Below are positions 14,021 to 36,894 of a stretch of 41,590 bases of DNA, piece after piece. The notes under the pieces are model-generated. The model worked only from the letters and a program-made list of their open reading frames with translations. It had not been told where the DNA came from and did not search any database. Where the stretch lies: positions 1 to 41,590 of the IMG/VR virus record IMGVR_UViG_3300030329_003866; one strand, written 5' to 3'. Every line of letters begins with the position of its first letter. The first letter of the stretch is position 1. The translations under genes were made by a program, and so were the position numbers. Source of the DNA: a virus.

Positions 14021-14257
14021 ATGAAATTAAAAGACGTAGTAGAAGCTAACTGGATTAAGAAGGCTATTAAGAAGCCCGGCGCACTTCGTAAGCAGTTGGG
14101 AGTTAAGAAGGGCGAGAAGATTCCTGTCGCTACTTTGAATAAAAAGATTGCCACTCTGCGTAAGAAGGGTGAAGGCGATAAGAAACTAACTAAGCCAGAG
14201 AGAACAGAGTTGAGAAGATTGCAGCTGGCTAAAACTCTTAGAGGTATGAAAAAATGA
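14021..14257 (+). CDS. Basic 78-residue protein with head-targeting-like N terminus
   Basis: It opens MKLKDVVEANW, giving a possible VVE|A cut. WIKKAIKKPGALRKQLGVKKGEKIP follows, a phrase shared with a small conserved phage protein type (I-x-KPGAL-x-x-x-LG-V-x-x-G-x-KIP). The end is Arg/Lys-rich (LAKTLRGMKK). The net charge is strongly positive, fitting a packaged DNA-associated protein. ATGA overlaps the next gene. Confidence 0.65.
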   Translation: MKLKDVVEANWIKKAIKKPGALRKQLGVKKGEKIPVATLNKKIATLRKKGEGDKKLTKPERTELRRLQLAKTLRGMKK

Positions 14258-14859
14258 GGCTAAAAAGCTTACTACCCGAAGCAAAGAAAGAAGACGATAT
14301 TCTTGAAGAAAGTACGCAACACTGGATGAGAGAGTTCGTTAAGAATTTTAAGAGATATGTTAAGGGTTATAGAAATGTTTCGGATCAAAAAATTATAGAT
14401 GCTGCGGGTGGCAAGCATAGAATGTTGCGCTTGTATAGGGCCGGAACAGAGCCTCGTAAAGCCGCTATGATTCTTGCTCGTGATAATAAGGCAACAGCTA
14501 GTCTGGGCGAAGCAAAAGATGGAGACATTCATAGAGAGTATGAAGCTGGTGAAGCATTTAAATCTGTCAGAGAAAAGGGTATGGTGTTTATCATTCTGTA
14601 TCCTTATACTGCAGCACAAGGTGTTAAGAAATGGACTGGCGTAGAGTTTCAGTTGAGTCCTAAATGGGGTGAGCCTTATTTGGGTTCAGCGCAAGTTACT
14701 ACTGCTGGCGATGACTTGGCTTTCAAGGGTTATAAGAAGATAAAACTTACTGCTAAGATGAAGAAACAGATTCAAAAGATTCTGAAAGACCCAGAAGAGC
14801 TTGATAGAATAGAGCGCTCAGACACAAAGGTTAGAGATATTGAGAGGGCTATACGATGA
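14254..14859 (+). CDS. Unknown protein with head-targeting-like N terminus
   Basis: The 201-residue product begins MRLKSLLPEAKKED, with a possible LPE|A cut after residue 9. The body is basic and mixed alpha/beta, with GMVFIILYPYTAAQGVKKWTG and a C-terminal helical Lys-rich stretch. No known fold is recognised. It overlaps both neighbours by four bases, so it is translated in the same run. Confidence 0.6.
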   Translation: MRLKSLLPEAKKEDDILEESTQHWMREFVKNFKRYVKGYRNVSDQKIIDAAGGKHRMLRLYRAGTEPRKAAMILARDNKATASLGEAKDGDIHREYEAGEAFKSVREKGMVFIILYPYTAAQGVKKWTGVEFQLSPKWGEPYLGSAQVTTAGDDLAFKGYKKIKLTAKMKKQIQKILKDPEELDRIERSDTKVRDIERAIR

Positions 14860-15122
14860 AGCTAGCAGATATTCTTACTGAAGCAGATTGGGCGGCGTTT
14901 AATAAACCCCAAAAGTTTGGCTCCTATCAACGTGATGCAAAAAAACGATTTGAAGTTCGCTACATGGGCTCAAAAGGAAAAAAGATAGAGGTTGCTGATT
15001 TTAATACACTTAGTGCATCCAAGAAGTTTCTTAAGCAGCTAAAAAAGACTGGAGCTAAGGGAATGATTTTTGTAAATGGAAAGCCCCTTGAAATACCACA
15101 ACAAATGGGTTTGGGTATATAG
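14856..15122 (+). CDS. Basic 88-residue protein with head-targeting-like N terminus
   Basis: The start MKLADILTEADWA predicts a LTE|A cut after residue 9. The remainder is small and Lys-rich, with beta-type segments (FEVRYMGSKGKKIEVADF, KGMIFVNGKPLEI). It could be a compact nucleic-acid-binding protein. No family is recognised. Confidence 0.6.
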   Translation: MKLADILTEADWAAFNKPQKFGSYQRDAKKRFEVRYMGSKGKKIEVADFNTLSASKKFLKQLKKTGAKGMIFVNGKPLEIPQQMGLGI

Positions 15123-15134
15123 GAGAAAAAACAG

Positions 15135-15554
15135 ATGAAGTTAAACGAAGCTTGGAGAGGCGGTCGTCAGTGGAAAGGCGCAAAAGCCACTGCTCCTGGT
15201 CGTCAAAGAATACATCAGCAATGGATGGCAGCCTTTGCCGATGAGATTGAAATACTTAATCCTAAGATGGTAGGCAGAATAGATTGGGATAGCGCTCAGA
15301 CATTGAAAGATAAGGGCGTGAAACCCAAAGACGCTGCCAAGAGATTGGCGAAGCGTCCTGTAAGAGAGTCTAAGATTACTCGTAAGGACATGAGTGATGT
15401 TGCTATTTTTGCTGATGATGCAATTCCTAATGATAAAGATAAGTGGAAGGTTTCTAAGCGCGCTGCCAAGAGAAAGTTTGGAGAAGCCTCTAGTCAGGCT
15501 AAAAAGCGTTACGCTCAAAAACATTATAGAGAGAGTGGCGGCACATTTAAATAA
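15135..15554 (+). CDS. Basic 139-residue protein with short head-targeting-like N terminus
   Basis: It begins MKLNEAWRGG, giving LNE|A after residue 5. The body is rich in Lys, Arg and Ala, and it ends with SKRAAKRKFGEASSQAKKRYAQKHYRESGG, a strongly basic helix. Probably DNA-associated; function unknown. A GGAGAAAAA ribosome site precedes it. Confidence 0.6.
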   Translation: MKLNEAWRGGRQWKGAKATAPGRQRIHQQWMAAFADEIEILNPKMVGRIDWDSAQTLKDKGVKPKDAAKRLAKRPVRESKITRKDMSDVAIFADDAIPNDKDKWKVSKRAAKRKFGEASSQAKKRYAQKHYRESGGTFK

Positions 15555-15607
15555 GTAAATAATATGTTTAAAGGTTCTTCTCGTATTATTATTATAGGAG
15601 AACTATT

Positions 15608-16030: not shown

Positions 16031-16041
16031 GGGAGTAAAAA

Positions 16042-16770
16042 GTGAAACTAATAGATATACTTTACGAAGGTGTTAATGACCCTGGCATTTTTAAGGCTGT
16101 TTTTTTAGCTGGCGGTCCTGGTAGTGGAAAGTCATTTGTTGCCGGCGAAGTTATGGGCATCCCTAAAAACCTCTCCTTCTCTGTGGACGGTTTAAAGGTA
16201 ATTAACTCTGATCCAGAATTTGAATACTTTCTGAAAAAGCAAGGTGTAGACCCTAGTTCTCTCGGTCAACTTAGCGATAAAGAGTTTGAGAAACTTACTG
16301 TAGGACCAGACTCTCCTAGAGAAAAAGCTAAGACCGTAAAGAAGGCTAAAGAAAAACTTTACATTCAAGGTCGTCTTGGTCTTTTGATTGATGGCACAGG
16401 TGATGACTATGCAAAGATAAAGAAGAAGAGGCAAGAGCTGATAAAGTATGGTTATGATACTTACATGGTTTTTATTAACACTACTCTAGAAGTTGCTCAA
16501 GAAAGAAATGCACAGAGAGATAGAGTCTTACCAGAGAAGATGGTCAAAAAGATCTGGACCGATGTGCAGAAAAACTTGGGTAGGTTTCAAGGCTTGTTCA
16601 AACAAAACTTTACCATTATAGATAACACTGAAGTAAGAGTAGCCAAGAGAGCGAATGATAATAGGTTATTTGAGAAACACATTTACATGGCTATCAAGCG
16701 TTTCATGCGTACTCCTATAAAGAGCGGCGTTGCGAAGACATGGATTAGGCAACAGGGGGGAAGGAAATGA
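16042..16770 (+). CDS. P-loop kinase (zeta-toxin/polynucleotide-kinase-like) with head-targeting-like N terminus
   Basis: GTG at 16042 follows the ribosome site GGGGAG. The 242-residue protein starts MKLIDILYEGVND, predicting LYE|G, and then goes straight into a kinase fold. AVFLAGGPGSGKS is the Walker A at residues 24-31. GLLIDGTGDDYAKI near 116-129 is a second acidic motif. VFINTTLEVAQERNAQRDR near 142-160 is the lid region. The fold fits zeta toxins and related small-molecule or nucleotide kinases. The leader lies outside the kinase core, which suggests an enzyme delivered in the virion, as T4 Alt is; this is inference. It overlaps the next gene by four bases. Confidence 0.7.
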   Translation: MKLIDILYEGVNDPGIFKAVFLAGGPGSGKSFVAGEVMGIPKNLSFSVDGLKVINSDPEFEYFLKKQGVDPSSLGQLSDKEFEKLTVGPDSPREKAKTVKKAKEKLYIQGRLGLLIDGTGDDYAKIKKKRQELIKYGYDTYMVFINTTLEVAQERNAQRDRVLPEKMVKKIWTDVQKNLGRFQGLFKQNFTIIDNTEVRVAKRANDNRLFEKHIYMAIKRFMRTPIKSGVAKTWIRQQGGRK

Positions 16771-17081
16771 AGTTAGCTGAAGCTGTAGGTAAAAACTTTT
16801 GGCTTAGTGAAGATGAGCTTCATGTGGCACTTTCTAATTTAGATGGGTGGGAGCTAGATGGTGACTATATTAAGAAGAAGTATCAGTTTGAAGACTGGAA
16901 GAAGATAACAAAGTTTTTAGAAATCATTGCTGCTTTGGTGAAGAAAGAAAACCATCATCCACAACTCAAGTTGGATAGTAAGAATAAGTGGGCAGAGGTA
17001 ATGCTGCGCTCTCATAACTCTAATAGCATAAGCAAGTACGACACTAATTTTGCTCAGAAGCTAGACAAGAAGGTAAAGTAA
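16767..17081 (+). CDS. Pterin-4a-carbinolamine dehydratase-like (DCoH/PhhB) protein
   Basis: The 104-residue product matches the small dehydratase fold. LDGWELDGDYIKKKYQFEDW precedes ITKFLEIIAALVKKENHHPQLKL and VMLRSHNSNSISKYDTNFAQKLD. The three family histidines are present as H63, H64 and H83. The enzyme recycles the tetrahydropterin cofactor of aromatic amino acid hydroxylases, and relatives can act in folate synthesis. The N terminus, MKLAEAVGKN, looks like the head-targeting motif (LAE|A). The next gene (IscA-like) starts at the A of its TAA stop, so the two are coupled. Confidence 0.8.
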   Translation: MKLAEAVGKNFWLSEDELHVALSNLDGWELDGDYIKKKYQFEDWKKITKFLEIIAALVKKENHHPQLKLDSKNKWAEVMLRSHNSNSISKYDTNFAQKLDKKVK

Positions 17082-17410
17082 TGACGATAACTGAATCGGC
17101 TCAAGCTAAGTGGTTAGACTTAGTAGAAAAACTAGAGCTTCCTCAAGATACCCATCTTCGTGTTGCTATTAAGGGTGGAGGTTGTTCGGGTTTTTCCAAG
17201 GAGTTAGACTATTGTTCTTCTGAAAGCATTACAGACATGGACGTAATAGCAGAGCATGGAGAAGTAAAGTCAGTTATTGATGCGAAGAGTATGCTGTTTC
17301 TACATGACGCAACCATTGACTATGTTGATGGTTTGATGGGTGCGGGTTTCACTATAACAATACCATCTGCAAAAAATACTTGTGGGTGTGGAGAAAGCTT
17401 TAGTGCATAA
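17081..17410 (+). CDS. A-type iron-sulfur carrier (IscA/ErpA/HesB-like)
   Basis: This 109-residue protein shows the complete family pattern. ITESA is at the start, LRVAIKGGGCSGFSKELDY carries Cys35, VIDAKSMLFLHDATIDYVDGL lies in the middle, and CGCGESF (Cys101, Cys103) is at the end. The three cysteines bind or transfer Fe-S clusters. Together with the ferredoxin and glutaredoxin at 6540-7061 it suggests support of Fe-S enzymes during infection. Its first 19 codons, plus 7 bases before the ATG, recur almost exactly inside the gene at 17918-18640. Confidence 0.92.
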   Translation: MTITESAQAKWLDLVEKLELPQDTHLRVAIKGGGCSGFSKELDYCSSESITDMDVIAEHGEVKSVIDAKSMLFLHDATIDYVDGLMGAGFTITIPSAKNTCGCGESFSA

Positions 17411-17580
17411 TGACACAACTTTCTAACCCTGCTGGCTTGACTTGTGATACGTGCCAAAAGGAAAATGATACATTGTATAGGGTAGTATTAGATAAGGGTT
17501 ATAACGCTCTTATAAAACGTCCTATGTGGAACTGTAAAGAATGTTATGAGAATAAGAATAAAGAAAGAGAAACTACTTAA
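17410..17580 (+). CDS. Small zinc-ribbon protein
   Basis: A 56-residue frame begins at ATG 17410, overlapping the IscA stop by one base (TAATG), and ends at TAA 17578-17580, itself overlapping the next ATG. It contains CDTCQKEND and, about 25 residues on, CKECYENK, two CxxC half-sites for a zinc ribbon, with a basic C terminus. The seamless overlaps on both sides support it as a real gene. Function unknown. Confidence 0.65.
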   Translation: MTQLSNPAGLTCDTCQKENDTLYRVVLDKGYNALIKRPMWNCKECYENKNKERETT

Positions 17581-17927
17581 TGAGTGAGAGTTATAATATA
17601 TTACTTGAGAATGGGTTTGCCCTTCTTGCAGAAAATGGGGACAACATAGTATTAGAGTCTGATGTTCCAGGCGATGGTTCAAGTTCAAGTGGTCAAGGTG
17701 GTCCTAGTAAGAAAAGAGAAAGAGATACAACAGAGTTGTGGGAAGTTGGTAGTCGCATGAGCAGAATAAATGGTAACATTTTATTGGGTGAGTTAAATAG
17801 AGTAAAATATTATACTATAGAAGAGAGCAGTCCAACTATTAGAATAAAAGAAGTAAAAGAAAACTTTTTAGAGCGTCCCCCAACTTTTCCAATACGTGTA
17901 AATATAAGGAATCTAAAATGGAAATAA
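17580..17927 (+). CDS. Unknown protein with repeat-like N terminus
   Basis: The 115-residue product starts YNILLENGFALLAENGDNIVLESD, a short beta repeat (N-x-LLENG / LLAENG-x-x-I-x-LE) common in phage tail or neck proteins. A Gly/Ser linker and a charged mixed region follow. Its end overlaps the next gene by 10 bases. A virion role is likely but unproven. Confidence 0.5.
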   Translation: MSESYNILLENGFALLAENGDNIVLESDVPGDGSSSSGQGGPSKKRERDTTELWEVGSRMSRINGNILLGELNRVKYYTIEESSPTIRIKEVKENFLERPPTFPIRVNIRNLKWK

Positions 17928-21361: not shown

Positions 21362-21589
21362 ATGAAACTAAATGAATCGTGGGGTCAAAGAGACAGCAAA
21401 CCTATTGATGTAAATAAGACTCGCTCTATAGCTGGTAAGGTTATCAAAAACATTTGGGTTGAGTTAGATAAAATAGGGGCCAATAGCCCATCTGATAGAA
21501 GACGTTATTTAGATGCTATTCTTACTTCTTTAGAGCAGCGTGGTCATAAGATGATAGATAGGAAGCTGAAAAAGGCTCAACAACGATGA
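21362..21589 (+). CDS. Basic 75-residue protein with head-targeting-like N terminus
   Basis: It begins MKLNESWGQRDSK, with LNE|S after residue 5, almost the same start as the gene at 15135 (MKLNEAW). The rest is a helical Arg/Lys-rich domain ending RKLKKAQQR. It overlaps the next gene by four bases. Confidence 0.6.
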   Translation: MKLNESWGQRDSKPIDVNKTRSIAGKVIKNIWVELDKIGANSPSDRRRYLDAILTSLEQRGHKMIDRKLKKAQQR

Positions 21590-21957
21590 AGCTAAAAGAT
21601 TTATTGAAGGATAAAGTGATTAAGGCAAAACTTGCCAAGTTAGGCTTTGCGTTTACTGCGAATGTCAGTGCTCAACAGCTAAATACTTTATTGACAATTT
21701 TGCGTGGACTAGGAATAGTAGAAGCTCATAAGTATAGTAAAAAAGATGGTCGCGACTATGAGAAGGAAAGGAAGTTTAATGATACACCCAAGGCCCGTAA
21801 ATACAGAGCCAAACTCAACCGCTACAATAGAGATAAAGGCACGTACGGCAATGGCGACGGACGCGATGCTAGCCACAGCGGTGGGCGCATTGCAGGGTTT
21901 GAACCCTCATCTAAAAATAAGGGACGAAAGGAAAAATCAAGACTCAAAAAGAAATAG
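21586..21957 (+). CDS. Basic protein with HNH-like remnant C terminus
   Basis: The 123-residue product starts MKLKDLLKDKVIK, a head-targeting-like leader lacking the Glu at the expected cut. A helical domain follows. Then comes DTPKARKYRAKLNRYNRDKGTYGNGDGRDASHSGGRIAGFEPSSKNKGRKEKSR. This recalls the small phage HNH-like module with a GDG-x-x-x-x-H core and terminal N/R-rich segment. Key metal residues look eroded, so nuclease activity is doubtful. It probably binds DNA. Confidence 0.55.
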   Translation: MKLKDLLKDKVIKAKLAKLGFAFTANVSAQQLNTLLTILRGLGIVEAHKYSKKDGRDYEKERKFNDTPKARKYRAKLNRYNRDKGTYGNGDGRDASHSGGRIAGFEPSSKNKGRKEKSRLKKK

Positions 21958-22859: not shown

Positions 22860-23483
22860 ATGAAGCTAAAAACTATTATTAAAGAAGATGAAGGTAGCAT
22901 TAGAGACTTAATGGCTCGCTTTGCTATCGCTAACAATAAAGACAGTGAGCGCGCCCATGACAAGTGGGGTGGTATGATAGCTGCTCGTTTAATGGATTTA
23001 GGTTTTGTATGGAAAGTTCGCAGACAGATTTTAGCCGCCTTGGATGATGTTACGAGCCAAAAGCAACTGGATAAGATAATAGCTCAGTATAAACTATATG
23101 GTGACTATGCTGATACCTTCAAGCCCACAGAAGCTACTTTGGCTAATGCCTTGAGAGAGGCAGAAGCAGAGGGTATTAATTCTTCAGATGTACCTAATAC
23201 TGAAAAGAAGTTTAAGTTAGTGTTAGAAATTCCCTATACTACTTCAGATAATAAAGAACAAAAAATGAGGCGACTCAAGTATGACCTATCTCTGAATAAT
23301 ATTGAAGTAGAGGCAATAGATGGTATCAATGTCGCTGAGTTAGATAAAGGTGTTTTAGATTATCAAGCTGTTGTATACATAAAAACTACCATGACTCGCA
23401 CAGAGTTAAACACTATTCTTGAACCCGATTATAAAATAGCAAAGATGCAACGTCTAGACCAAGAGCCTGCCAAAGATGCCTGA
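22860..23483 (+). CDS. Unknown protein with head-targeting-like N terminus
   Basis: The 207-residue protein begins MKLKTIIKEDEGS (IKE|D, a weaker site because of Asp). An N-terminal helical half follows. The C-terminal domain has FKLVLEIPYTTSDNKEQKMRRLKYDLSLNNIEVEAIDGIN and a two-strand repeat of similar form. It overlaps the WYL-like gene by 8 bases. Function unknown. Confidence 0.55.
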   Translation: MKLKTIIKEDEGSIRDLMARFAIANNKDSERAHDKWGGMIAARLMDLGFVWKVRRQILAALDDVTSQKQLDKIIAQYKLYGDYADTFKPTEATLANALREAEAEGINSSDVPNTEKKFKLVLEIPYTTSDNKEQKMRRLKYDLSLNNIEVEAIDGINVAELDKGVLDYQAVVYIKTTMTRTELNTILEPDYKIAKMQRLDQEPAKDA

Positions 23484-23793
23484 TTTAAAAACAACTGATA
23501 GAGTTGCGAAAGTTTTGATTGAGGGTATAATGAATAATAAAGTTGTGCGTATTAGGTATGAAAAAAAAGATAAAGTTTATAAGCGACCAAAACCTGAAGG
23601 TCGTGTAGAAAAAGGCGATACAGTAACTAGAATGCTGGAACCTTATGAAATAAAGCATGAAGGTGAGAAAGAGTTTTTATGGGCGTATGACCCAAAAGCT
23701 CGACATATAAAGAAGTTTAACCTAGAAGGTATTACTAGCGCTCGCCTTATCAATAAAGTATTTCAACCTAATGAGGCTTGGATACAAGAATGA
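23476..23793 (+). CDS. WYL-like single-domain protein
   Basis: The 105-residue product reads like a small WYL domain. IMNNKVVRIRYEKKD is the first strand. VTRMLEPYEIKHEGEKEFLWAYDPKARHIKKFNLEGITSARLIN matches the pattern R-x-x-EPY-x-(I/L) ... L-x-AYD ... I-(R/K)-x-F-x-L-x-x-I. WYL domains sense nucleic acids or nucleotides and often regulate transcription or defence systems. Here there is no helix-turn-helix. It directly precedes and overlaps the terminase gene. Confidence 0.6.
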   Translation: MPDLKTTDRVAKVLIEGIMNNKVVRIRYEKKDKVYKRPKPEGRVEKGDTVTRMLEPYEIKHEGEKEFLWAYDPKARHIKKFNLEGITSARLINKVFQPNEAWIQE

Positions 23794-25445
23794 ACGAACA
23801 AGAACTAAAAGAGTATGTTAAGTGTCGTAAGGATCCTGTTTATTTTTTCAAAACATATGGAAGAGTAAGACATCCTCGCAAGGGTCTGATACCTTTTGAC
23901 TTATATGATTTTCAAGAAGATACTTTAACAAGTTTTTTAGATAGCTCTTACAATATTATTTTAAAAGCACGGCAGTTAGGTATCTCTACCTTATGCGCTG
24001 CTTATGCCGGTTGGTTGGCTAACTTTTTTAAGGATAAGGAAATCTTTATTCTTGCCACTAAAAGAGAAACAGCAACTAACTTGGTAGATAAAGTAAGAGT
24101 ATTCCTTGAAGAGATCCCCGACTTTTTAAAAAGCGATCTAATAGTTGATAACCGTCAAAGCATGGAGCTAGCTAATGGTAGTAAGATAAAAGCTGGCGCT
24201 ACAGGCACTACTTCTAAAGACGCAGCTCGTTCAGAAGCTTTGAGTCTTTTGATTGTTGATGAGGCAGCTTTCATTAAAGCTATGGATGACATTTGGATTG
24301 CCGCTCAACCTACTCTATCTACAGGTGGTGATTGTATCGTCCTGTCTTCGCCTAATGGTATTGGTAACTGGTTTCATAAAAGTTACATAGAAGCGGAGGC
24401 AGGGACTAGTGAAAAGGTGGGCGATAAACACATTTCTTTTAATCCTATAGTATTGCCGTGGAGCTTGCATCCCGATAGAGATGATGAATGGGCAAGAAAT
24501 GAAAAAAGGAAAATAGGTGATCAAGCTTTTGCACAAGAACATGATTGTGACTTTCTTCAATCGGGTAATAATGTAGTTAGTGTAAAGGCTCTTCAATGGT
24601 ATGAAGAACATCCTACCGAAGAAGAGCAAGCCGATGATGGCTATAGACCTTATGTTCGTGAACCCCAAGAAAAGACTTGGGTAGATAAAGGATTATGGAT
24701 CTGGAAATACCCCGACTATACAAAACAATATATGATAAGCGCTGATGTTGCAAGAGGTGACGGCAACGACTTCTCTGCGTTTCATGTTATTGATGTAGAA
24801 AACTATGAGCAAGTAGCAGAGTATAAAGGTAAAGTTAATACGGATGCTTATGCTCATCTCCTTCACAACACTGCAGTTCAATACAATAATGCATACATAG
24901 TAGTTGAAAATGCTTCAATGGGTCATCATGTGGTTATGAAAATCATAGAGATGGAATACAAAAATATGTATTGGACCATAAAAGACCTAACAAAGATACA
25001 TGAAAGTAACGCCAACCAGTTACACTATGATATTTATAATGTTCCGAAGAATGCTGTGCCTGGTTTTACTATGAGTATGAAAAGTAGACCAGCTTGTATA
25101 GCACGAATGGAAGAAGACTTAAGGACACATGATTTTACACTACATTCAAAGAGGACGGTTGCCGAGTTAGAAACCTTTGTGTTTCATAATGGCAAGCCAG
25201 AAGCATTAGCCACATATAATGATGACCTTGTTATGTCACTAGCTATGGGAATGTATGTTAGAACAACAACTCTTAAGTTCAATAGTCAAGAGGAAGAAAT
25301 GACAAAAGACTTATTGCAAGGGTTGAGTTTTAATAATACCCCTTATGAGTTCGGTGTTTGGAATGCGAAGTCACAAGAGCAAGAAAAACAGTGGACGTTT
25401 GATGCCGGTGGTGGGCAGAAGGAGGATATGAGATGGCTAGTGTAG
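23790..25445 (+). CDS. Terminase large subunit (T4 gp17-like)
   Basis: From ATG 23790, in ATGA overlap with the upstream stop, the protein has 551 residues; an earlier in-frame TTG at 23778 is less likely. The ATPase half shows KARQLGIST (59-67) at the Walker A position, LLIVDEA (153-159) as Walker B and LSSPNG (185-190) as the coupling motif. The usual Walker A lysine after Gly is Ile here. The nuclease half shows ISADVARGDGNDFSAF near 316, YIVVEN near 370 and YNDDLVMS near 478, the three acidic clusters of the RNase H-like fold. It packages DNA into the prohead through the portal encoded downstream. Confidence 0.93.
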   Translation: MNEQELKEYVKCRKDPVYFFKTYGRVRHPRKGLIPFDLYDFQEDTLTSFLDSSYNIILKARQLGISTLCAAYAGWLANFFKDKEIFILATKRETATNLVDKVRVFLEEIPDFLKSDLIVDNRQSMELANGSKIKAGATGTTSKDAARSEALSLLIVDEAAFIKAMDDIWIAAQPTLSTGGDCIVLSSPNGIGNWFHKSYIEAEAGTSEKVGDKHISFNPIVLPWSLHPDRDDEWARNEKRKIGDQAFAQEHDCDFLQSGNNVVSVKALQWYEEHPTEEEQADDGYRPYVREPQEKTWVDKGLWIWKYPDYTKQYMISADVARGDGNDFSAFHVIDVENYEQVAEYKGKVNTDAYAHLLHNTAVQYNNAYIVVENASMGHHVVMKIIEMEYKNMYWTIKDLTKIHESNANQLHYDIYNVPKNAVPGFTMSMKSRPACIARMEEDLRTHDFTLHSKRTVAELETFVFHNGKPEALATYNDDLVMSLAMGMYVRTTTLKFNSQEEEMTKDLLQGLSFNNTPYEFGVWNAKSQEQEKQWTFDAGGGQKEDMRWLV

Positions 25446-25675: not shown

Positions 25676-27412
25676 ATGGCGGATAGATTTGATTTACTAA
25701 AAAGATTGCTGAAAGGCGGGTCCGCAACTTACAAGACCCCCACAGAAAGACCCTCAAACATGAGCCAAAAGAGGGCCTTTGACTCATTTCATAAAGCAAC
25801 ACAAACGCTTTATGGTGAAGGACTGGTTGGAGGCGCAGAGCGTATTGAACGTGTGCGTGATTACGAAGAAATGGATCACTACCCAGAGATTACAAGAGCA
25901 TTAGACATTTACGCTGATGACTCTATGACCTATGCCGAAGATGGCAAAACTGTTCAGGTAGTAAGTGATGATGAAAAAATCGTTGGTGAGTTAGAAGAGC
26001 TTCTGTATCAAAGGTTAGACATTGACTTTCACCTTTGGACGTGGATTCGTAACATGTGTAAATACGGAGACCACTTCAACTTGCTAGACATTGTAAACAA
26101 AGAAGGTGTATTGGGTGCCATAGCGATGCCCGTTAGCGAAGTAGAGAGAGAAGAGGGGTACAATAACGATCCTAACAGCTTGAGGTTCAAGTGGACTTCA
26201 CAAGGGAATACCGTTTTTGAAAACTACCAGATATCTCACTTGCGCATTTTGGGCGATGATAGATTTTTGCCGTATGGTCGATCAGTATTGGACTCCTCAA
26301 GAAAAGTATGGAAGCAATTGTTGATGGCCGAAGACGCAATGTTAATCTACCGCATTAGTAGAGCACCAGAAAGGCGGGTATTTTATGTTGACGTTGGAAA
26401 CATTCCACCAAAAGATGTGGAAGGATACATGCAAAACGCGCGTGATAAACTTAAGCGCATACCAGTGGTGTCAGAGGCAAGCGGAAATGTTGACTTACGT
26501 TATAATCCCGAATCTATACTGGAAGATTTCTTTATTCCAGTTCGGGGTGATCGCGGCAGTAGGATTGAAACCCTTCCTGGCGGAGAAAATGCTGCTGCTA
26601 TTGAAGATATTCAGTATCTCCAAAATAAACTTTTTATATCCCTTGGCGTTCCTAAGTCTTATCTTACCGCGGAAGAAGACTTGTCGGGAAAATCAACACT
26701 AGCACAGGAGGATATTAAGTTTGCGAGAACTATTCAACGTATTCAAAAGATTGTTGTCAGTGAACTGGCGAAGATATCACTTATCCATCTCTATCTGCGT
26801 GGGTATGATGAGTCAGCTATTTATAACTTTGACTTGAAGCTAACTAACCCATCTACCATTACAGAGATGATGCATCTTGATTTGATGGATAAGAGATTTG
26901 GCACCGCGAGAGACATGGCAGACTCTGATATTATATCTTCATACTATGTGCAGAAGAATGTCCTCAAGTTATCTGATAATGAGATTGCTACTATTAAGAT
27001 TGACCAAGAGAAAGAAGCTGTTGCTAAGAGTATCATTGAGAAGTTAGAGCAGGGCGAGATGGAACAACCTGGTATGGGTGGTGGTGGAATGCCTGGCGCT
27101 GGTGGTGATGATGAAGAAGATGATAATGACAGTAATGAAGATAGAGAGAACTGGGCTAGCGACACAATGCCTTATGACCCAACAGGAACAAGAGAGCTTC
27201 CCGGATATCCTAAAGATTATAACTATAATGAAGCTGGCTTTGTGAGGCTCAATGGAAAAGGTAAAGAAAAGATAGATATGTTTGACAGAACTATCTCCGA
27301 TATTATGCAGTATAACTATGAATCAAAGGGTATGTTAGAAAACTTAATAAGAGACAAGAGCGATAATAAGTTAAATGACTCTTCACTAAAAAGTATCATT
27401 AGTGACATTTAG
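25676..27412 (+). CDS. Portal protein (T4 gp20-like)
   Basis: The 578-residue protein matches T4-type portals. RVRDYEEMDHYPEITRALDIYADDSMT is near 61-87, followed by FHLWTWIRNMCKYGDHFNLLDI. Later come YRISRAPERRVFYVDVGNIPP and LPGGENAAAIEDIQYLQNKLFISLGVPKSYL. The C-terminal part has a Gly/Met-rich and acidic linker (GMGGGGMPGAGGDDEEDD) before a final helical tail. Twelve copies are expected to form the DNA channel and start prohead assembly. Located just after the terminase, as in T4-like genomes, but the tail genes gp18 and gp19 do not lie between them. Confidence 0.93.
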   Translation: MADRFDLLKRLLKGGSATYKTPTERPSNMSQKRAFDSFHKATQTLYGEGLVGGAERIERVRDYEEMDHYPEITRALDIYADDSMTYAEDGKTVQVVSDDEKIVGELEELLYQRLDIDFHLWTWIRNMCKYGDHFNLLDIVNKEGVLGAIAMPVSEVEREEGYNNDPNSLRFKWTSQGNTVFENYQISHLRILGDDRFLPYGRSVLDSSRKVWKQLLMAEDAMLIYRISRAPERRVFYVDVGNIPPKDVEGYMQNARDKLKRIPVVSEASGNVDLRYNPESILEDFFIPVRGDRGSRIETLPGGENAAAIEDIQYLQNKLFISLGVPKSYLTAEEDLSGKSTLAQEDIKFARTIQRIQKIVVSELAKISLIHLYLRGYDESAIYNFDLKLTNPSTITEMMHLDLMDKRFGTARDMADSDIISSYYVQKNVLKLSDNEIATIKIDQEKEAVAKSIIEKLEQGEMEQPGMGGGGMPGAGGDDEEDDNDSNEDRENWASDTMPYDPTGTRELPGYPKDYNYNEAGFVRLNGKGKEKIDMFDRTISDIMQYNYESKGMLENLIRDKSDNKLNDSSLKSIISDI

Positions 27413-29122: not shown

Positions 29123-29616
29123 TGAAAAAGGTTAAGAAAGAAGTATCCACAACGGGTGGTGTAGCAGGGTATGATGGTGTTATTCCGGCAGTAGGGAATC
29201 CTACTGAAAAAGAAGTTAACCAATGGCAAAAGAAAAAGAAGAAATTTATGAAACGGCAAGGCAAGTCTAAAGACAAAACATATAAGAGCAAAAAGAACGT
29301 CACCGAAGCAGCAGACAACCTTATCAAAGAAACTATTCTGAATGTGTTGTTAGAGCAACCCGGTGACGAACGTATGCAATATATCATTCGTTTGTTTGAG
29401 GGCATTTCTAAAAACCTAAATGTAAGTTTGGGTTATGCGAGAATGTTTATTCTGGATGCCTTGAAGATGGACATTGCCACTGGTGCCGCTGAACTTAATG
29501 CCAAGAGAGCAACAGCAGAGCTGAATCATATTCGTAGAATGATTGACGATTTGGAAAGTTTGTTGGAAAAGATTGATGGCATCAACCATGAGAAGCAGCA
29601 ACAAGGGGGCGAGTAA
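29122..29616 (+). CDS. Unknown basic head-region protein
   Basis: The 164-residue protein starts with a Val/Gly-rich segment. A strong basic tract follows (QWQKKKKKFMKRQGKSKDK), then an amphipathic helical domain containing NLIKETILNVLLEQPG and a long C-terminal coiled coil (ELNHIRRMIDDLESLLEKID). It lies directly before the protease with a one-base overlap. A core or scaffold role is possible. Confidence 0.5.
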   Translation: MKKVKKEVSTTGGVAGYDGVIPAVGNPTEKEVNQWQKKKKKFMKRQGKSKDKTYKSKKNVTEAADNLIKETILNVLLEQPGDERMQYIIRLFEGISKNLNVSLGYARMFILDALKMDIATGAAELNAKRATAELNHIRRMIDDLESLLEKIDGINHEKQQQGGE

Positions 29617-30224
29617 TGTCTGAACTTAGAAATAACAATCCAGATTTACTTCATTCATTTCTATTGTTTGAATATGAAGATGTAAAACCATCCAAGTCTA
29701 GTGATGGTATTGTAACTATGAAGGGCATTATTCAAGCCGCTGGCAAACCTAATGCTAATAACCGCATTTATCCTAGACCTATTCTTGAAAGAGAAGATAA
29801 GAAGTATCAAGAACTTATTACAGAGCGCAGAGCTTTGGGTGAGCTTGATCATCCCGATAGCCCTATTGTTCAGTTGGAAAATGTTAGCCACCTAGTTACT
29901 GAAACAAGTTGGGATGGCGAGAATCTTGTTGGAGAGATTGAAGTATTGGATACTCCCAAAGGTCAGATTCTTGGCAAGCTCGTAGATAGAGATATTAAGT
30001 TGGGCATTTCTTCTAGAGGTTTGGGTAGCACAAGTAGAACCAACGAAGGTTACGATATGGTAGAGGATGACTTTAATCTTGTCTGCTATGATATGGTAAG
30101 CAACCCATCAACCAGTAATGCTTTTATGAACTTACAGGAAAGTGTAGCCTATCAGACTTTGATTAAGCAGAACAGAATGGTTCTGTTAGATGAAATCCTT
30201 AATGAAATATTGGAGATTGACTAA
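29616..30224 (+). CDS. Prohead core protease (T4 gp21-like)
   Basis: The 202-residue protein has the phage prohead protease layout. GELDHP carries the catalytic His79, GISSRGLGS the catalytic Ser near 132-133, and YDMVSNPSTSNAFM the conserved end of the fold, including Asp159. T4 gp21 cuts core and capsid proteins after Glu in (L/I)-x-E before small residues. Many small proteins around it start with exactly such a site (for example at 30224, 31141 and 31406). Overlap by one base places it in one translated run with its likely substrates. Confidence 0.92.
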   Translation: MSELRNNNPDLLHSFLLFEYEDVKPSKSSDGIVTMKGIIQAAGKPNANNRIYPRPILEREDKKYQELITERRALGELDHPDSPIVQLENVSHLVTETSWDGENLVGEIEVLDTPKGQILGKLVDRDIKLGISSRGLGSTSRTNEGYDMVEDDFNLVCYDMVSNPSTSNAFMNLQESVAYQTLIKQNRMVLLDEILNEILEID

Positions 30225-30586
30225 TGAAGATTAGAAAGTCGGAATTAAAAGAACTAGTCCAAGAAGTATTAGACGAAGCGGGCTTTGCCAAACTTAATGA
30301 AAAACAAAGAGTGCCTAATCACAGTGTGCCCGCATGGATGATTTCCGGTAAAGCAAATGTAGAGGTTGGATTTCATAATGGCCTTAAGGCTCTTCAAAAA
30401 GTAACTGCGCAGATGGAAAAAGAAGGCTTTGGTGATAAGAGATTACATAAAAAAATACAGCAAAAGTTTAAAGAGCTGAAAAAGTTGGGTGATCAAATTG
30501 GATATGTTGAAACAGGTAAAGAAGGGCCGCTCAAATTCGGAAAGCAACAAACTACAGCAGATAAACTTGGTGGTATGGGGAATTAG
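30224..30586 (+). CDS. Basic protein with SELK-type head-targeting leader
   Basis: The 120-residue product begins MKIRKSELKELVQEVLDEA, an amphipathic helix ending in LDE|A, and continues with GFAKLNEKQR. The rest is helical and Lys-rich (KKIQQKFKELKKLGDQIG). It starts at the last base of the protease stop, so enzyme and probable substrate are coupled. Confidence 0.65.
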   Translation: MKIRKSELKELVQEVLDEAGFAKLNEKQRVPNHSVPAWMISGKANVEVGFHNGLKALQKVTAQMEKEGFGDKRLHKKIQQKFKELKKLGDQIGYVETGKEGPLKFGKQQTTADKLGGMGN

Positions 30587-30589: not shown

Positions 30590-30652
30590 ATGTGTGATAA
30601 CCCTAAATGTGAGTGCGAAGATTGCACCTGTAACCCATGTGAGTGTGAATAA
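30590..30652 (+). CDS. Tiny Cys-rich metallothionein-like peptide (20 residues)
   Basis: ATG 30590 to TAA 30650-30652 encodes 20 residues, seven of them cysteine. They are arranged as C2, C7-x-C9, C12-x-C14 and C17-x-C19, with Asp and Glu between. Three CxC pairs in so short a chain are a metal-thiolate signature, as in small metallothioneins. The start lies three bases after the upstream stop and the stop overlaps the next ATG, so the frame fits perfectly between two genes. Ribosome-site support is weak (TTAGAT). Metal binding and expression are inferred. Confidence 0.6.
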   Translation: MCDNPKCECEDCTCNPCECE

Positions 30653-30912
30653 TGAAAATCAAAAGATCTGAATTAAAATCATTGATTGAAGAAGTATTGG
30701 AAGAGGGGCCGGATGGGGCGGCAGAAAGAGAATATAAAAATTCAATGAAAAATATTAAGCGCAAAGTAAAACAAATAGAAATGGCTTTGAAGCAAAGAGA
30801 TACGAAAAGTCATAAAAATGGACACTATGACCAACAATTACAACTTGCTGATATTGAAGCTGCTTTAAGTAATGCGTTAGTTAATATTAAAAAACCGATT
30901 GACTTGGATTAA
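30652..30912 (+). CDS. Small helical protein with SELK-type head-targeting leader
   Basis: The 86-residue product begins MKIKRSELKSLIEEVLEEG, clearly a paralogue of the leader at 30224, with LEE|G as possible cut. The remaining ~65 residues are a charged helical domain. The leaders match more closely than the bodies, suggesting a reused targeting module. Confidence 0.65.
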   Translation: MKIKRSELKSLIEEVLEEGPDGAAEREYKNSMKNIKRKVKQIEMALKQRDTKSHKNGHYDQQLQLADIEAALSNALVNIKKPIDLD

Positions 30913-30924
30913 AGGGAAAATAAA

Positions 30925-31131
30925 ATGAAACTAACCGAAGCTATAGGTAGTGGCCGTAAAGGTGTTGGTTTTGATAAGGATACTGCCAGCACTAAAAAAT
31001 GGATGAAGATGGCAGACAAATACTATAAGAATATTCAAAGTAACATTAAGCGTTTTCCTCATAGCGCACACGCTTATAGCTTAGTTAAAGCATTAAAGGC
31101 TATTGATGTAGAAACCTCTAAAGATTTATAG
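30925..31131 (+). CDS. Small basic protein with head-targeting-like N terminus
   Basis: The 68-residue product starts MKLTEAIGSGRKG, with LTE|A after residue 5. Removal would leave a small basic helical protein (WMKMADKYYKNIQSNIKRF). GGGAAAATAAA precedes the ATG. Unknown otherwise. Confidence 0.6.
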   Translation: MKLTEAIGSGRKGVGFDKDTASTKKWMKMADKYYKNIQSNIKRFPHSAHAYSLVKALKAIDVETSKDL

Positions 31132-31140: not shown

Positions 31141-31404
31141 ATGAAACTAAAGCAAACAATTAATGAAGCAGAAGAAGTAGAGTTTGGCTCGCTTGATAGT
31201 AAGCAGCAGAATAAAATCAAGGCTGTCCATAAACACGTTGCTGGAAAACGCGGCTATATCTTTGATGGTATAAACGGGCTGATAGTACAGTTTATTACTG
31301 CCGGTGATGTGGGTCAAATCTCTGGAAAACAAATTAAGGGTCTAGCCAAAGAAAACATTCGCTGGATGAAGGTTGGTAAAAAAGATGTCGTAGTGGGGAT
31401 ATAA
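31141..31404 (+). CDS. Small protein with head-targeting-like N terminus
   Basis: The 87-residue product starts MKLKQTINEAEEVEF, predicting INE|A. A small basic mixed alpha/beta domain follows (NKIKAVHKHVAGKRGYIFDGINGLIVQFI ... VGKKDVVVGI), which looks folded rather than disordered. Function unknown. Confidence 0.6.
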   Translation: MKLKQTINEAEEVEFGSLDSKQQNKIKAVHKHVAGKRGYIFDGINGLIVQFITAGDVGQISGKQIKGLAKENIRWMKVGKKDVVVGI

Positions 31405-31405: not shown

Positions 31406-31642
31406 GTGAAATTAAAAAATGCTTTGCTAAATGAAGCAATGTCTGATAAAGAAAAGAAACATGCGCTTTGGCTGGCTGATAAAGTTATTAGTGGTAAAGT
31501 AGATTTAGGAACTATAGAAAGATGGACTGCTACCGTAAATAAAGATATGTTAAAGTTGATAAAAAAGAAAATTAAAGCACACCGTGCAGATTTTACCAAA
31601 AACTTTGTTACGCATAAGGGCAACCCTGTTTTTCTTGACTAA
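31406..31642 (+). CDS. Small basic protein with head-targeting-like N terminus
   Basis: GTG at 31406, one base after the preceding stop, opens MKLKNALLNEAMSDK with LNE|A after residue 10. The remaining part is helical and basic (MLKLIKKKIKAHRADF). Its N terminus is close to that of the gene at 31647 (MKLKNVLSEL), suggesting a recent paralogue pair. Confidence 0.6.
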   Translation: MKLKNALLNEAMSDKEKKHALWLADKVISGKVDLGTIERWTATVNKDMLKLIKKKIKAHRADFTKNFVTHKGNPVFLD

Positions 31643-31646
31643 GACT

Positions 31647-32009
31647 ATGAAACTAAAGAATGTATTATCGGAACTATCGGGAAAAACTACAGCGTATGCT
31701 TCTAAGTATGTACCCGGTAATTCTAGTGTATCTTCATGGGGAATAAAAGGATATAGAACAACGCCAGGGAATAAGTTAGACGACCCTGTATCACAAACCT
31801 TGGATCCCTACATTGAAGAGCAGTTGATTGACCAAGTAATAGATGTAATGTATAGAGACTATCCGGAGATGGTCAAGGATAAGAAGGTTAAAAGACATCT
31901 AGTTCAAATGCTAGTTGGTAAAGTTATGGAAGGTGAAGTAAGAGACATTATTGATATTGATCGTTTTATTAAACGACTTAAAAAACGTATGAAGGTAGAG
32001 ACTATATAA
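31647..32009 (+). CDS. Unknown protein with head-targeting-like N terminus
   Basis: The frame is open further upstream, but ATG 31647 gives MKLKNVLSELSGK, matching the shared leader, and avoids overlap with the gene at 31406. The product has 120 residues. A Gly/Ser/Tyr-rich middle is followed by a helical, basic end (VRDIIDIDRFIKRLKKRMK). The possible cut LSE|L has a bulky residue after Glu, so it may not be processed. Confidence 0.6.
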   Translation: MKLKNVLSELSGKTTAYASKYVPGNSSVSSWGIKGYRTTPGNKLDDPVSQTLDPYIEEQLIDQVIDVMYRDYPEMVKDKKVKRHLVQMLVGKVMEGEVRDIIDIDRFIKRLKKRMKVETI

Positions 32010-33001
32010 TGCAAATAAAGAAATCAGAACTAAGAAAAGTGATTCAAGAAAGACTTCAGATGTTCTTTTCAGATAGCAAGCCTTTTGCTACTGTGGGGCG
32101 CGCACCTACCTTTGAAGCAGGTATTGAAGACCCCAACGGTGAACAGATTGAAGTTGATCAAGAAGCCTTAGATGCTGCTATTGCAGAAACTGTTAAGGGT
32201 TTGGAGAAAGGTGCCTCTATGAGAATGAGAGCAGAGGCTATAGGAGTTTCAAATACTCGCGATGCAATGCTAAAGAAAGCTATTGGTAAAATGATTAATG
32301 AAATCTCTGGTGTTGATTCTCTCAAGCCTAATGACCCACACACTCCGGAAGATGAGGCAGAGAAAGATGCTGCTGACGATGTGATGGAAACTAAGGAGAA
32401 GGGTGGCAGACCAAGAGGCGCACCTCATATTCAGAATGTAAGATTTTGGGATTTACCTGAGAGTAGTTTAAGATACATTATTAAAGATGCTAGCGATGCT
32501 GTTAAAAGATTGCCTATGGCAAAAAAAGCTGGTAAGTGGGCTGATGAAGTGAATGACGCTGTTACTGTTTTGCATTGGCGTAAGAAGAAAGGCATTACAG
32601 TAGAAGAAGGTAAAGATGAAAAGAAGGGCAAGATTCGCAAGCGTCCTTGGGTAAGTGGGTTAGATCCCGCCGGCGGTATCGGAGAAGGTAAAGACTCTGA
32701 TGAGTGTGACCGTAGAACTGGTGGCACTTGGGAAAGTAAAGATGTTGGTAGTCTAGCTCAAGGAAAGCGTAAAGAGATTGTTAAGAAAATGCACAAGTTG
32801 GTTAAGGATGGTTTGGGTTTGAAGTCTATCGAAGATGTGCAGCCAGTCTCAAGTGGAGAGCATGGTGGTGATGGTGTGGCTTTTATCTTTGGTGATGCGA
32901 AAGAAGGTAGAAAGTTTGCTAACTATTTGAAGAAGAAGAGGGCGTTGGGTAAGGTAGTCAAAATGAGAGGCGACCGTTTGATGGTTAGCCTTTATTACTA
33001 A
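32009..33001 (+). CDS. Unknown 330-residue protein with SELK-type leader
   Basis: It begins MQIKKSELRKVIQERLQMFF, a third SELK/SELR-type leader but without a clear L-x-E-A end. The centre is charged and partly disordered, with a KGGRPRGAPHIQN tract and a Lys-rich section. The last ~85 residues form a compact domain with GVAFIFGDAKEGRKFANYLKKKRALGKVVKMRGDRLMVSLYY. Two or three domains are likely. No family is recognised. It overlaps the previous stop by one base. Confidence 0.55.
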   Translation: MQIKKSELRKVIQERLQMFFSDSKPFATVGRAPTFEAGIEDPNGEQIEVDQEALDAAIAETVKGLEKGASMRMRAEAIGVSNTRDAMLKKAIGKMINEISGVDSLKPNDPHTPEDEAEKDAADDVMETKEKGGRPRGAPHIQNVRFWDLPESSLRYIIKDASDAVKRLPMAKKAGKWADEVNDAVTVLHWRKKKGITVEEGKDEKKGKIRKRPWVSGLDPAGGIGEGKDSDECDRRTGGTWESKDVGSLAQGKRKEIVKKMHKLVKDGLGLKSIEDVQPVSSGEHGGDGVAFIFGDAKEGRKFANYLKKKRALGKVVKMRGDRLMVSLYY

Positions 33002-33320: not shown

Positions 33321-33330
33321 GGAAAATAAA

Positions 33331-33525
33331 ATGAGATTAAAAGAAGCTATTGATAATAGTGATTTCAGAGGCCCGGTTTATAATGCAGGTGATGGAATAC
33401 AAGAGCTAATAAGTGTAGCTAAGGATTCCAAAGATAGAAAACTTATTGGTTTGGTGCAAAAAGTAGATAGCGCCATGACTAGTGTGCATAAGTATTTGGA
33501 TAAAAACTTTAAAGGATGGGACTAA
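33331..33525 (+). CDS. Small protein with head-targeting-like N terminus
   Basis: The 64-residue product starts MRLKEAIDNSDF, with LKE|A after residue 5. The body is a short helical bundle-like sequence (IQELISVAKDSKDRKLIGLVQKVDSAMTSVHKYL). AAGGAAAA precedes the ATG. Confidence 0.6.
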   Translation: MRLKEAIDNSDFRGPVYNAGDGIQELISVAKDSKDRKLIGLVQKVDSAMTSVHKYLDKNFKGWD

Positions 33526-33529
33526 CGGT

Positions 33530-33967
33530 ATGGCAGGTCTTAGAGCGTCAGATTTAACTGCAGCAATAGTTGAAGGGGTTTCCAAGTCCCTAGCAAAGAT
33601 TCTTTTACCTAAAGTTAGAAAAATGATTAGGGAAGAGATTAAGCGGGGTATGGATCAAATTATATCAGAAGGGACATTTAGCTCTGCTGCTCCGGCATCT
33701 ACTCAAGCCGCAAAAGAAACTATTGCTCAAAGACAGAGTAGAGCAAGGGAAAGAGCACGTGCTATAGTTGAAAGAGCAGGTAGGATAGATGATCCACTTC
33801 TTGATATGGTTATTAATGCTGAAGATCCACAAGAAGAAAAAGAACTAATGATGCAAGAGCAACTACAGCAACCAATGGTTGATTCTAAGGAGGTGCAGAG
33901 AGGTGATGTAGTATCTCCCGAAAATATTAACTTTAATGATAGGTTAGAAAAGTTGGGGATTGTTTAA
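33530..33967 (+). CDS. Unknown helical protein, possible head component
   Basis: ATG 33530 is chosen over an upstream in-frame TTG because it follows the previous stop by four bases and has GGATGGG upstream. The 145-residue product begins MAGLRASDLTAAIVEGVSK (IVE|G). An amphipathic basic helix (ILLPKVRKMIREEIKRGMDQI), a Ser/Ala linker and an Arg-rich helix (RQSRARERARAIVERAG) follow. A second candidate site, IISE|G, lies near 48. Function unknown. Confidence 0.55.
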   Translation: MAGLRASDLTAAIVEGVSKSLAKILLPKVRKMIREEIKRGMDQIISEGTFSSAAPASTQAAKETIAQRQSRARERARAIVERAGRIDDPLLDMVINAEDPQEEKELMMQEQLQQPMVDSKEVQRGDVVSPENINFNDRLEKLGIV

Positions 33968-35607: not shown

Positions 35608-35616
35608 AAACGAGTT

Positions 35617-35850
35617 ATGATGAATCAAATAAGGCGGCAGTTGAGCAACAAGAGGAAAGTTAGTGTCAATTTAAGAGATGGAAATGATGGCGCTTCATTA
35701 GAGCGAGCGCTACGAGAGTTAAAAAGGAAGCTAAAAAAAGATGGCTTCTATAAAGAGTTGCGAAGAAGAGAGTATTTTATTTCCCCATCTGAAGAGAAAA
35801 AACTTAAGAGAAGAAGGAAAAAATCTATTTCTGGTGAAGAGCTAACGTAG
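35617..35850 (+). CDS. Ribosomal protein bS21-like
   Basis: The 77-residue product contains VSVNLRDGNDGASLERALRELKRKLKKDGFYKELRRREYFISPSEEKKLKRRRKKS. This matches bS21 closely in plan: (V-x-V) strand, E-x-A/L-R-x-(F/L)-K-R, K-x-G, E-x-RRR-E-(F/Y), P-S/T-E-x-(R/K)-K and a basic end. bS21 sits on the 30S platform near the anti-Shine-Dalgarno sequence. Phage copies may alter which messages are translated. The extra ~14 basic residues at the N terminus are unlike E. coli bS21. It lies just upstream of the gp22/gp23 genes, which need very high translation. Confidence 0.8.
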   Translation: MMNQIRRQLSNKRKVSVNLRDGNDGASLERALRELKRKLKKDGFYKELRRREYFISPSEEKKLKRRRKKSISGEELT

Positions 35851-35868
35851 TTTTCACTTTTATGTTAC

Positions 35869-35876
35869 ATATTTAA
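35869..35876 (+). promoter_or_regulatory. Variant ATATTTAA element, candidate phage promoter
   Basis: One mismatch to the octamer. A second near-copy, ATATCTTTAT, follows at 35887-35896, in the 90-base gap before the gp22-like start at 35941. Two degenerate copies could give added control of the scaffold and capsid transcript. Confidence 0.3.
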
Positions 35877-35940
35877 TTAGACGGGCATATCTTTATGCTT
35901 GTCATAAATTTAATTTTAAGTGTTGAATGGAGACTTTAAC

Positions 35941-36894
35941 ATGGCAAGAGATATTGTATCAGAAGCCGTTCAGCAGGCAGAGGCTATGAAGTCGGCCGCT
36001 TATGAAAACGCCAAGAGTGTTTTGGTTGAAGCTATGAGCACCAACTTGAAGGCCGCTGTAACTGAGGCTATTGATGAACAGATCGAAGATGCCGATGTCG
36101 AAGCCGTTGCAGAGACAGACGCAATGGATGAGGCTAGCATTGACGAGCGACAGAAGTATGGTGGTAACAAGGGCGATGAGTCCCGTAGCCGCCGTGACTT
36201 TGAAGAGGGCGAGGATGTAACCGAACTTGAGTATACCGAGGACGAGGACGAAGAGGAAATCGCTGATGACGCATATGATGTAGATGACGATGCTGGCGAT
36301 GAAGAGGGCGAAGAGGACTTGGAAGAGTTGGACATCGAAGAAGTTATCGAAATCATCGAAGACGAAGAAGAAGATGATGATGAAGATATTGATGTTGACA
36401 TTGATGTTGATAAAGATGATGACGACGATGATGATGAAGATGAAGATGATGATGATATTGATGAGGACCAGAAGTATGGTGGCAATAAGGGTGACGAGTC
36501 TCGCAGTAAGAGAGATTTTGAGGCCGCTATTGCTGAGAATAAGTCTTTGAAGAAGCAGAATGCACGCTACGAGAAGGCTCTCACTTTCTTGAAGAAGAGA
36601 ATTGATGAGGTTAATCTTTTCAATGCTCGCTTGGCTGCAGCTAGTGATGTTATGAAGGCTGTTACATTGACCAAGGAAGAGAAAGAGCAGGTTGTTGATC
36701 ATTTCGACAGCTGCAAGAATGTTAATGAAGTTAAGAGGACTTTCAATGTTGTAGTCGAAGCTTACACAGCTAACGACAGAGTTACTAAGCAGCGTGTTGA
36801 TCGTCCAAATGTTCAGAGTGTTATTAGTGAAGAAACAAAGTCCCCAGGTGATGCTCAGTTTGACAGACTAGCTGAACTTGCTGGCTTAAAGTAA
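35941..36894 (+). CDS. Prohead core/scaffold protein (T4 gp22-like)
   Basis: ATG 35941, with GGAGA 9 bases before, gives 317 residues; an upstream in-frame TTG lacks support. The start MARDIVSEAVQQAEAMK includes VSE|A, a likely gp21 site. Residues ~70-180 are extremely acidic (runs of Asp and Glu). The C-terminal third is a helical Lys/Glu domain with KQNARYEKALTFLKKRID, typical of gp22. QKYGGNKGDESRS occurs twice, bracketing the acidic region. In T4 the core is degraded by gp21 during maturation. Synonymous codons are richer in C than in most neighbours, as in the capsid gene. Confidence 0.82.
   Translation: MARDIVSEAVQQAEAMKSAAYENAKSVLVEAMSTNLKAAVTEAIDEQIEDADVEAVAETDAMDEASIDERQKYGGNKGDESRSRRDFEEGEDVTELEYTEDEDEEEIADDAYDVDDDAGDEEGEEDLEELDIEEVIEIIEDEEEDDDEDIDVDIDVDKDDDDDDDEDEDDDDIDEDQKYGGNKGDESRSKRDFEAAIAENKSLKKQNARYEKALTFLKKRIDEVNLFNARLAAASDVMKAVTLTKEEKEQVVDHFDSCKNVNEVKRTFNVVVEAYTANDRVTKQRVDRPNVQSVISEETKSPGDAQFDRLAELAGLK
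36149..36535 (+). repeat. Acidic domain bracketed by two QKYGGNKGDESRS repeats
   Basis: The units start near 36149 and 36469 and encode QKYGGNKGDESRS-(R/K)-RDFE. Third-position differences show they are not a very recent copy. Between them lies the Asp/Glu-rich tract. Confidence 0.85.

Follow-up and report, generated by a model that had tools for sequence, protein, structure and literature searches.

A short leader, apparently removable, on unrelated proteins of a T4-type phage resembles the T4 capsid-targeting sequence

Why should a dozen or more phage genes encoding unrelated proteins begin in nearly the same way? The question is raised by a 41,590-base virus record of IMG/VR (IMGVR_UViG_3300030329_003866, positions 1 to 41,590; hereafter the window), an incomplete fragment in which the head module of a T4-type myovirus was found, with genes for large terminase, portal, gp21-type protease and gp23-type capsid protein. 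Counts of tagged genes given below cover these 41.6 kb only. A short, apparently removable tag seems to be carried here by at least a dozen unrelated proteins, a device known from phage T4, but apparently employed here on a much larger scale. The leaders are interpreted as T4-type capsid-targeting sequences (CTSs), removed by the gp21-like protease and borne by a large set of packaged proteins (probability about 0.85). Targeting leaders of this type, removed in this way, had been proposed in an earlier sequence-only reading of the window, and are strongly supported by comparative evidence and by the virion proteomes of other T4-like phages. Cleavage, packaging in the window phage and ejection into the host are inferred.

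Genes starting with M(K/R)L are 13 of the 65 called in the window, as compared with a frequency of 1.2% for the same residues after internal methionines (binomial p=7e-13). Among 814 non-redundant genes taken from 92 loci, those of the window and of relatives, 164 (20%) have this start (p=8e-145 against the same baseline). An h-x-E site (h, hydrophobic; x, any residue), counted within residues 5-16, is present in 149 of the 164 (91%) versus 221 of the 650 other genes (34%), shuffles giving 68+-6. Most of these sites lie at residue 5, 8, 9 or 10, and A, V, G or D is the usual next residue. Tagged bodies of the 814-gene set sort into 43 clusters lacking mutual similarity at E 1e-3, of which 13 are seen in the window, and a short N-terminal tag is thus common to unrelated bodies. 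A glycosyltransferase-like family of relatives (MKLENIGVVMLSHGRRDK), which has the MKL start and no h-x-E site, was counted as a mimic and not as a member.

In the window, genes being named by their first position (Table 1), 13 have both the M(K/R)L start and (L/I/V)-x-E by residue 5-10. The sequence-only reading had listed at least 15 M(K/R)LK-like leaders, most of them with such ends; the 13 stand, whereas the cut position is occupied by Asp in 21586, and 33530 is not MKLK-like. Three longer leaders of the MKI(R/K) type had also been listed: 30224 and 30652 fit well, but 32009 starts with MQIKKSELRKVIQERL, neither MKI nor provided with a clear L-x-E end, and both 32009 and 33530 are weak. 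That the bodies are unrelated, mostly basic and in part enzymes was borne out by the 43 clusters, by a median isoelectric point of 9.9 for mature tagged bodies versus 5.4 for other window genes (p=8e-6), and by the kinase and dehydratase domains. The leaders are confined to two blocks of the late region, 14-24 kb and 30-33.6 kb, and are absent from all 21 genes of the first 14 kb. Start codons are present for all the genes earlier named, and a Shine-Dalgarno-like site is detectable for all except 31647, that of 22860 being also weak.

The strongest sequence evidence for a T4-type leader is the conservation of junctions where the upstream sequence has been replaced. The AEYQGR body family (phrog_7595) was found behind 18 different upstream contexts, extending from the short leader MKLSDVLE↓ (arrows mark predicted cuts) to the final residues of long, unrelated N-terminal segments. 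P1 is Glu and P3 is V, L or M in every one of them, with P2 variable, (V/L/M)-x-E↓A; since several contexts are related to each other, they do not correspond to 18 independent events. The kinase body follows leaders of different length in relatives of the window, each ending in (L/I)-x-E↓G. In Pelagibacter phage HTVC008M the sequence before it is MIPFILKE↓G, in Methylophilales phage Melnitz it is MKTFAELQE↓G, and in Agrobacterium jumbo phage Atu_ph07 the junction, SEVTE↓G, lies far inside a 778-residue protein; (L/I/V)-x-E↓G is kept across these four phage groups. The dehydratase gene 16767 has four relatives carrying M(K/R)LxE↓A.

Genes 14254 and 21586 look like two-part precursors, in which a second h-x-E site would lie between the bodies. 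The internal SLGE↓AK of 14254 aligns exactly with the leader end LLNE↓AK or LIKE↓AK of shorter homologues, and in the structure model (predicted local distance difference test, pLDDT, 72) a low-confidence linker spans residues 86-105, at the internal site. Similarly, the internal GIVE↓AHKYSK of 21586 aligns with the leader MKL(R/K)D(V/I)IE↓AHKYSK of relatives, as MKLRDIIE↓AHKYSK. A second internal cut site is a possibility in 22860 too, where the model (pLDDT 67) features a low-confidence linker at residues 82-113, and the linker site LRE↓A is kept in close relatives only. Neither the 22860 nor the 14254 model could be matched usefully to a fold in BFVD or PDB, and both served only to locate disorder and domain boundaries. 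Close members of the 22860 family have the short leader, distant members start with a longer helical form (for example MTTEQELKKIIKEE), which suggests that short and long forms are interchangeable.

The T4 record gives MKTYQEFIAE↓A as the start of IPII and IPIII, MELITELFDE↓D as that of Alt and MAKINELLRE↓S as that of gp24, the common spacing being h-x-x-h-h-x-E. Residues 4 and 7 of the IPIII CTS serve for targeting, residues 8 and 10 for processing, and Asp at the cut position stops processing and leaves targeting (PMC9026906). The window leaders share with the CTSs of IPI, IPII, IPIII and Alt the short tag, the hydrophobic spacing, the (L/I)-x-E motif and a gp21-type protease, and the cargo is likewise basic and made of unrelated bodies. 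They differ in starting with MKL, in having the pattern usually one residue earlier (3, 6, 7, 9), and in occurring also in two-part and in five-residue forms, the latter retaining the L-x-E part only. Mature bodies gave no PHROGs or Pfam match to T4 internal proteins or Alt. A gp21-type protease is encoded in the same phage; its L-x-E specificity is presumed only from the aligned capsid protein, where L-N-E is found at the position of the L-T-E cut of T4 gp23. As the protease is about 50% identical to gp21 of Microcystis phage Mel-JY01 and Flavobacterium phage immuto, the clade of the window phage has no close isolate.

The amphipathic N-terminal segment (h-x-x-h-h, then x-E) would dock the newly made protein onto the prohead core, and after closure of the shell the gp21-like protease would cut behind (L/I/V)-x-E. 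The mature, mostly basic body, released within the head, would stay with the DNA and could be ejected with it, so that tagged proteins would possibly be delivered into the bacterium. The tag would be a module placed on many unrelated bodies, some genes encoding two bodies in one precursor with the second h-x-E site in between.

The set of T4 is made of IPI-III, Alt, gp67 and gp68. The window clade has far more tagged genes than T4 and many different enzyme bodies, and the claim of a set far larger than in T4 holds for T4 itself; it does not extend to the T-even relatives, for which at least 10 internal proteins are jointly reported (PMC12373910), nor to giant phage SPN3US, with about 50 head proteins (PMC7411985). 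The 18-20 packaged proteins earlier proposed are too many, good cases in this incomplete fragment being about 14-17. In the giant phages phiKZ and SPN3US head propeptides are cut by gp175/gp245, a gp21-related protease with a Glu cut motif, and many head proteins are ejected (PMC5694885, PMC10052503); those propeptides are mostly much longer, several exceeding 100 residues, whereas window leaders measure 5-18 residues.

Tagged proteins have been found in virions of cyanophages. Table 3 of the S-CREM2 report gives 52 virion-detected proteins (PMC10665884). Of the coding sequences of the genome, 217 were translated, and a T4-derived pattern allowing K/R/N/Q at residue 2 matched 6 open reading frames (ORFs), 5 of which are virion-detected (Fisher p=0.003; 5 of 7 with a looser pattern, p=0.009), p-values which are indicative only because the exact pattern was fixed after a first look at the data. 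Detected are a S-adenosylmethionine (SAM) hydrolase (MKDFDSFLEE↓), a kinase (MKRFDAFLTE↓), a cytidylyltransferase (MKNFSSFLTE↓), and ORFs 13 and 136. The tagged cytidylyltransferase of S-SZBM1 (MRFRQFIIE↓A) was detected in virions as well (PMC9146016). Virion kinase, cytidylyltransferase and SAM hydrolase of S-CREM2, S-SZBM1 and other cyanophages carry a leader of the same spacing in a dialect of its own, MKxFxxFLxE, unlike the MKL type. No targeting tag is mentioned in the passages on virion proteins of the cyanophage proteome papers. ORF12 of S-CREM2 (L289), a Cas9-like protein detected in virions (PMC10665884), has an internal RFASFMAE↓A motif, perhaps a displaced tag, about 25 residues from its annotated start. 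No virion proteome of Immutovirus was found, and a Flavobacterium phage paper does not mention these phages.

T4 gp67 and gp68 are core proteins of a kind that is degraded or expelled. The leaders might likewise be helices by which components of the prohead core or scaffold dock, serving assembly only, many such proteins being degraded or expelled in maturation and not injected. Long forms do adjoin gp21, as core proteins do, and most bodies are small and lack a known function; but kinase and pterin dehydratase bodies carry the tag, and tagged enzymes stay in S-CREM2 and S-SZBM1 virions according to the virion protein lists cited, making an assembly-only role unlikely. Far less probably, the common start acts at the nucleotide level (ATGAAACTA), in translation or in the regulation of late genes, and not as a peptide signal. 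The Leu3 codon is CTA in 51% of leaders, as compared with 16% in codons 2-6 of other genes, positions directly upstream of the start are A-rich, and the ribosome-binding site (RBS) plus leader start is repeated once (30915-30949 and 33321-33355; 35 nt, 83%), a pattern that copying of a leader cassette would produce. Synonym usage is nevertheless ordinary at codons 6, 7 and 9, the h-x-E junction is kept deep within proteins too, and other phages keep the spacing with different residues. CTA bias and repeat together point to recent copying of leader cassettes, or to a minor nucleotide-level signal. Adjacent small genes with a common N terminus could also be diverged paralogues, the leader being the best-kept part of one ancestral protein; this is hardly credible, as the 43 body clusters include unrelated enzyme folds, and the same body was found behind different leaders.

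Several observations weigh against T4-type targeting leaders. Gene 21586, with Asp in place of Glu, is an imperfect fourteenth case; the 10-residue length of the characterised T4 CTS is not reached by the five-residue leaders; the preference for CTA at codon 3 suggests that a nucleotide-level component may be involved. Virion evidence comes from other T4-like phages, none of the window clade, the S-CREM2 pattern was set late, as said, and the small tagged ORFs 191 and 192 of S-SZBM1 were not detected. Only 10 of the 31 tagged contigs larger than 20 kb, among the matches listed in the search described below, have gp21, as expected for fragments, which is no proof.

That search of IMG/VR was made with a degenerate DNA pattern for MKLK(D/E)hhxEA, the control being a scrambled pattern equal in information content. 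The leader pattern was found in at least 120 stretches, the scrambled one in 15 in the whole collection. Among the matches listed, the former lies nearly always at ORF starts, on many bodies, and T4-core genes are nearby in 46 of 120 leader loci versus 1 of 15 scrambled-pattern loci. Among the 31 tagged contigs above, 12 have gp23; gp21 is found in 0 of 8 control contigs, and would be expected in about 9 of 31, by our own estimate, were the contigs random pieces of a 170-kb T4-like genome. Strict co-occurrence of leader and protease, which the earlier reading had suggested checking, is consistent with the data and not proven, because absence of gp21 from a fragment proves nothing. In Flavobacterium phage immuto (L312, 100-149 kb), leaders close to the genes for terminase and gp21 follow two further dialects: three genes have FDLKKFLVE / FNLRSFLTE, and four have a MKKSQLRQIIKE-like form. 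The open-access papers searched gave no account of leaders of this kind in marine T4-like phages, subscription papers being outside the search.

Table 1. Tagged and head-assembly genes of the window (↓, predicted cut)
Feature	Position	Strand	Remarks
Leader MKLKDVVE↓A, basic 70-residue body	14021..14257	+	leader-bearing homologue in L089
Leader MRLKSLLPE↓A, extra domain, internal SLGE↓AK (codons 84-86, 14503-14511), second body	14254..14859	+	putative two-part precursor; L160/L164/L124 alignment
Leader MKLADILTE↓A, basic body	14856..15122	+	
Very short leader MKLNE↓A, body with basic C-terminal ITRKDM domain	15135..15554	+	homologues with other leaders/junctions, e.g. DIIE↓G, GIVE↓G
Leader MKLIDILYE↓G, zeta-toxin/AAA_33-like P-loop kinase	16042..16770	+	Pfam E=4e-8; junction (L/I/V)xE↓G kept in relatives
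Very short leader MKLAE↓A, pterin-4a-carbinolamine dehydratase	16767..17081	+	PF01329 E=1.4e-16, domain from residue 13
Very short leader MKLNE↓S, basic body	21362..21589	+	relatives MKLSE↓ANSKP, MKLNE↓SWGQ
Leader MKLKDLLKD↓K, insert, internal GIVE↓AHKYSK (codons 44-46, 21715-21723), phrog_6437 body (E=6e-13)	21586..21957	+	
Leader MKLKTIIKE↓D, two-domain acidic body; possible second site ALRE↓A, residues 98-100 (23151-23159)	22860..23483	+	16-sequence alignment
Long leader MKIRKSELKELVQEVLDE↓	30224..30586	+	similar long forms in gp21 loci and Flavobacterium phage immuto
Long leader MKIKRSELKSLIEEVLEE↓	30652..30912	+	
Very short leader MKLTE↓A, basic body	30925..31131	+	RBS plus leader in 35-nt repeat with 33321
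Leader MKLKQTINE↓A	31141..31404	+	relatives in L002, L083
Leader MKLKNALLNE↓A, GTG start	31406..31642	+	
Leader MKLKNVLSE↓L, poor Shine-Dalgarno	31647..32009	+	12/12 relatives MKLxx(V/I/L/C)LxE↓, Glu at residue 9
Weak long-form leader MQIKKSELRKVIQERL	32009..33001	+	no clear L-x-E end
Very short leader MRLKE↓A	33331..33525	+	
Doubtful leader MAGLRASDLTAAIVE↓G, I-V-E↓G at residues 13-15	33530..33967	+	not MKLK-like
Large terminase	23778..25445	+	phrog_2
Portal protein (gp20)	25676..27412	+	phrog_213 E=2e-76
gp21-type prohead protease, proposed cutter	29616..30224	+	phrog_207 E=4e-49; His and SSRG conserved with T4 gp21
Probable scaffold (gp22 position, acidic)	35941..36894	+	from its place between gp21 and capsid gene
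gp23-type major capsid protein; predicted cut L61-N62-E63 (37098-37106)	36918..38675	+	phrog_138; alignment with T4 FLTE↓A site

Some further features surround these genes. The scaffold candidate has no family match in the PHROGs search. The dehydratase gene adjoins an IscA/HesB-like gene (17081; 16767-17410 together) which has no leader. The gene at 17918-18640 is a mosaic: two of its stretches, of 68 and 45 nt, are 93% copies of the beginnings of the IscA-like gene (17074-17141) and the scaffold gene (35946-35990), respectively, and three LKIINDLPR repeats come after them. A very basic 127-residue protein (11508-11891), featuring an amphipathic start (MDKLLKETIEQIVREELVKM), is perhaps another long-form tagged protein. 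A complete transfer-messenger RNA gene resides at 12446-12728 (Rfam RF00023, 92 bits; ARAGORN tag AEETTEYALAA).

Enzyme cargo identified by Pfam in the window comprises the kinase and the dehydratase. Relatives and other contigs add cytidylyltransferase-like and polynucleotide kinase-like proteins, another zeta/AAA_33 kinase and DUF6267, and, as weak matches, an Arr-like ADP-ribosyltransferase (below the curated cut-off) and HD. For most tagged bodies no Pfam or PHROGs family was found, and the 31647 body gave no tblastn match among isolated phages. No support was found for 14254 as an ADP-ribosyltransferase like T4 Alt. By analogy with T4 Ip1-3 and Alt (PMC12373910, PMC9026906), it may be speculated that the cargo counters host defence or steers metabolism.

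The odds are about even that one general and readable code for packaging is common to marine T4-type phages: an N-terminal h-x-x-h-h-x-E or, in two-part precursors, an internal h-x-E would load ten to twenty different proteins per virion, metabolic and signalling enzymes included, for delivery with the genome. Each clade would have its dialect: MKLxDILxE here, MKxFxxFLxE in cyanophages, FDLKKFLVE and MKKSQLRQIIKE in the flavophage. T4 proteins entering the cell with the DNA include anti-restriction factors and an RNA polymerase modifier; beyond few models such phage proteins are mostly uncharted. A leader readable from sequence would yield lists of candidate injected proteins for many uncultured T4-like phages, and would explain the enzymes seen by cyanophage virion proteomics.

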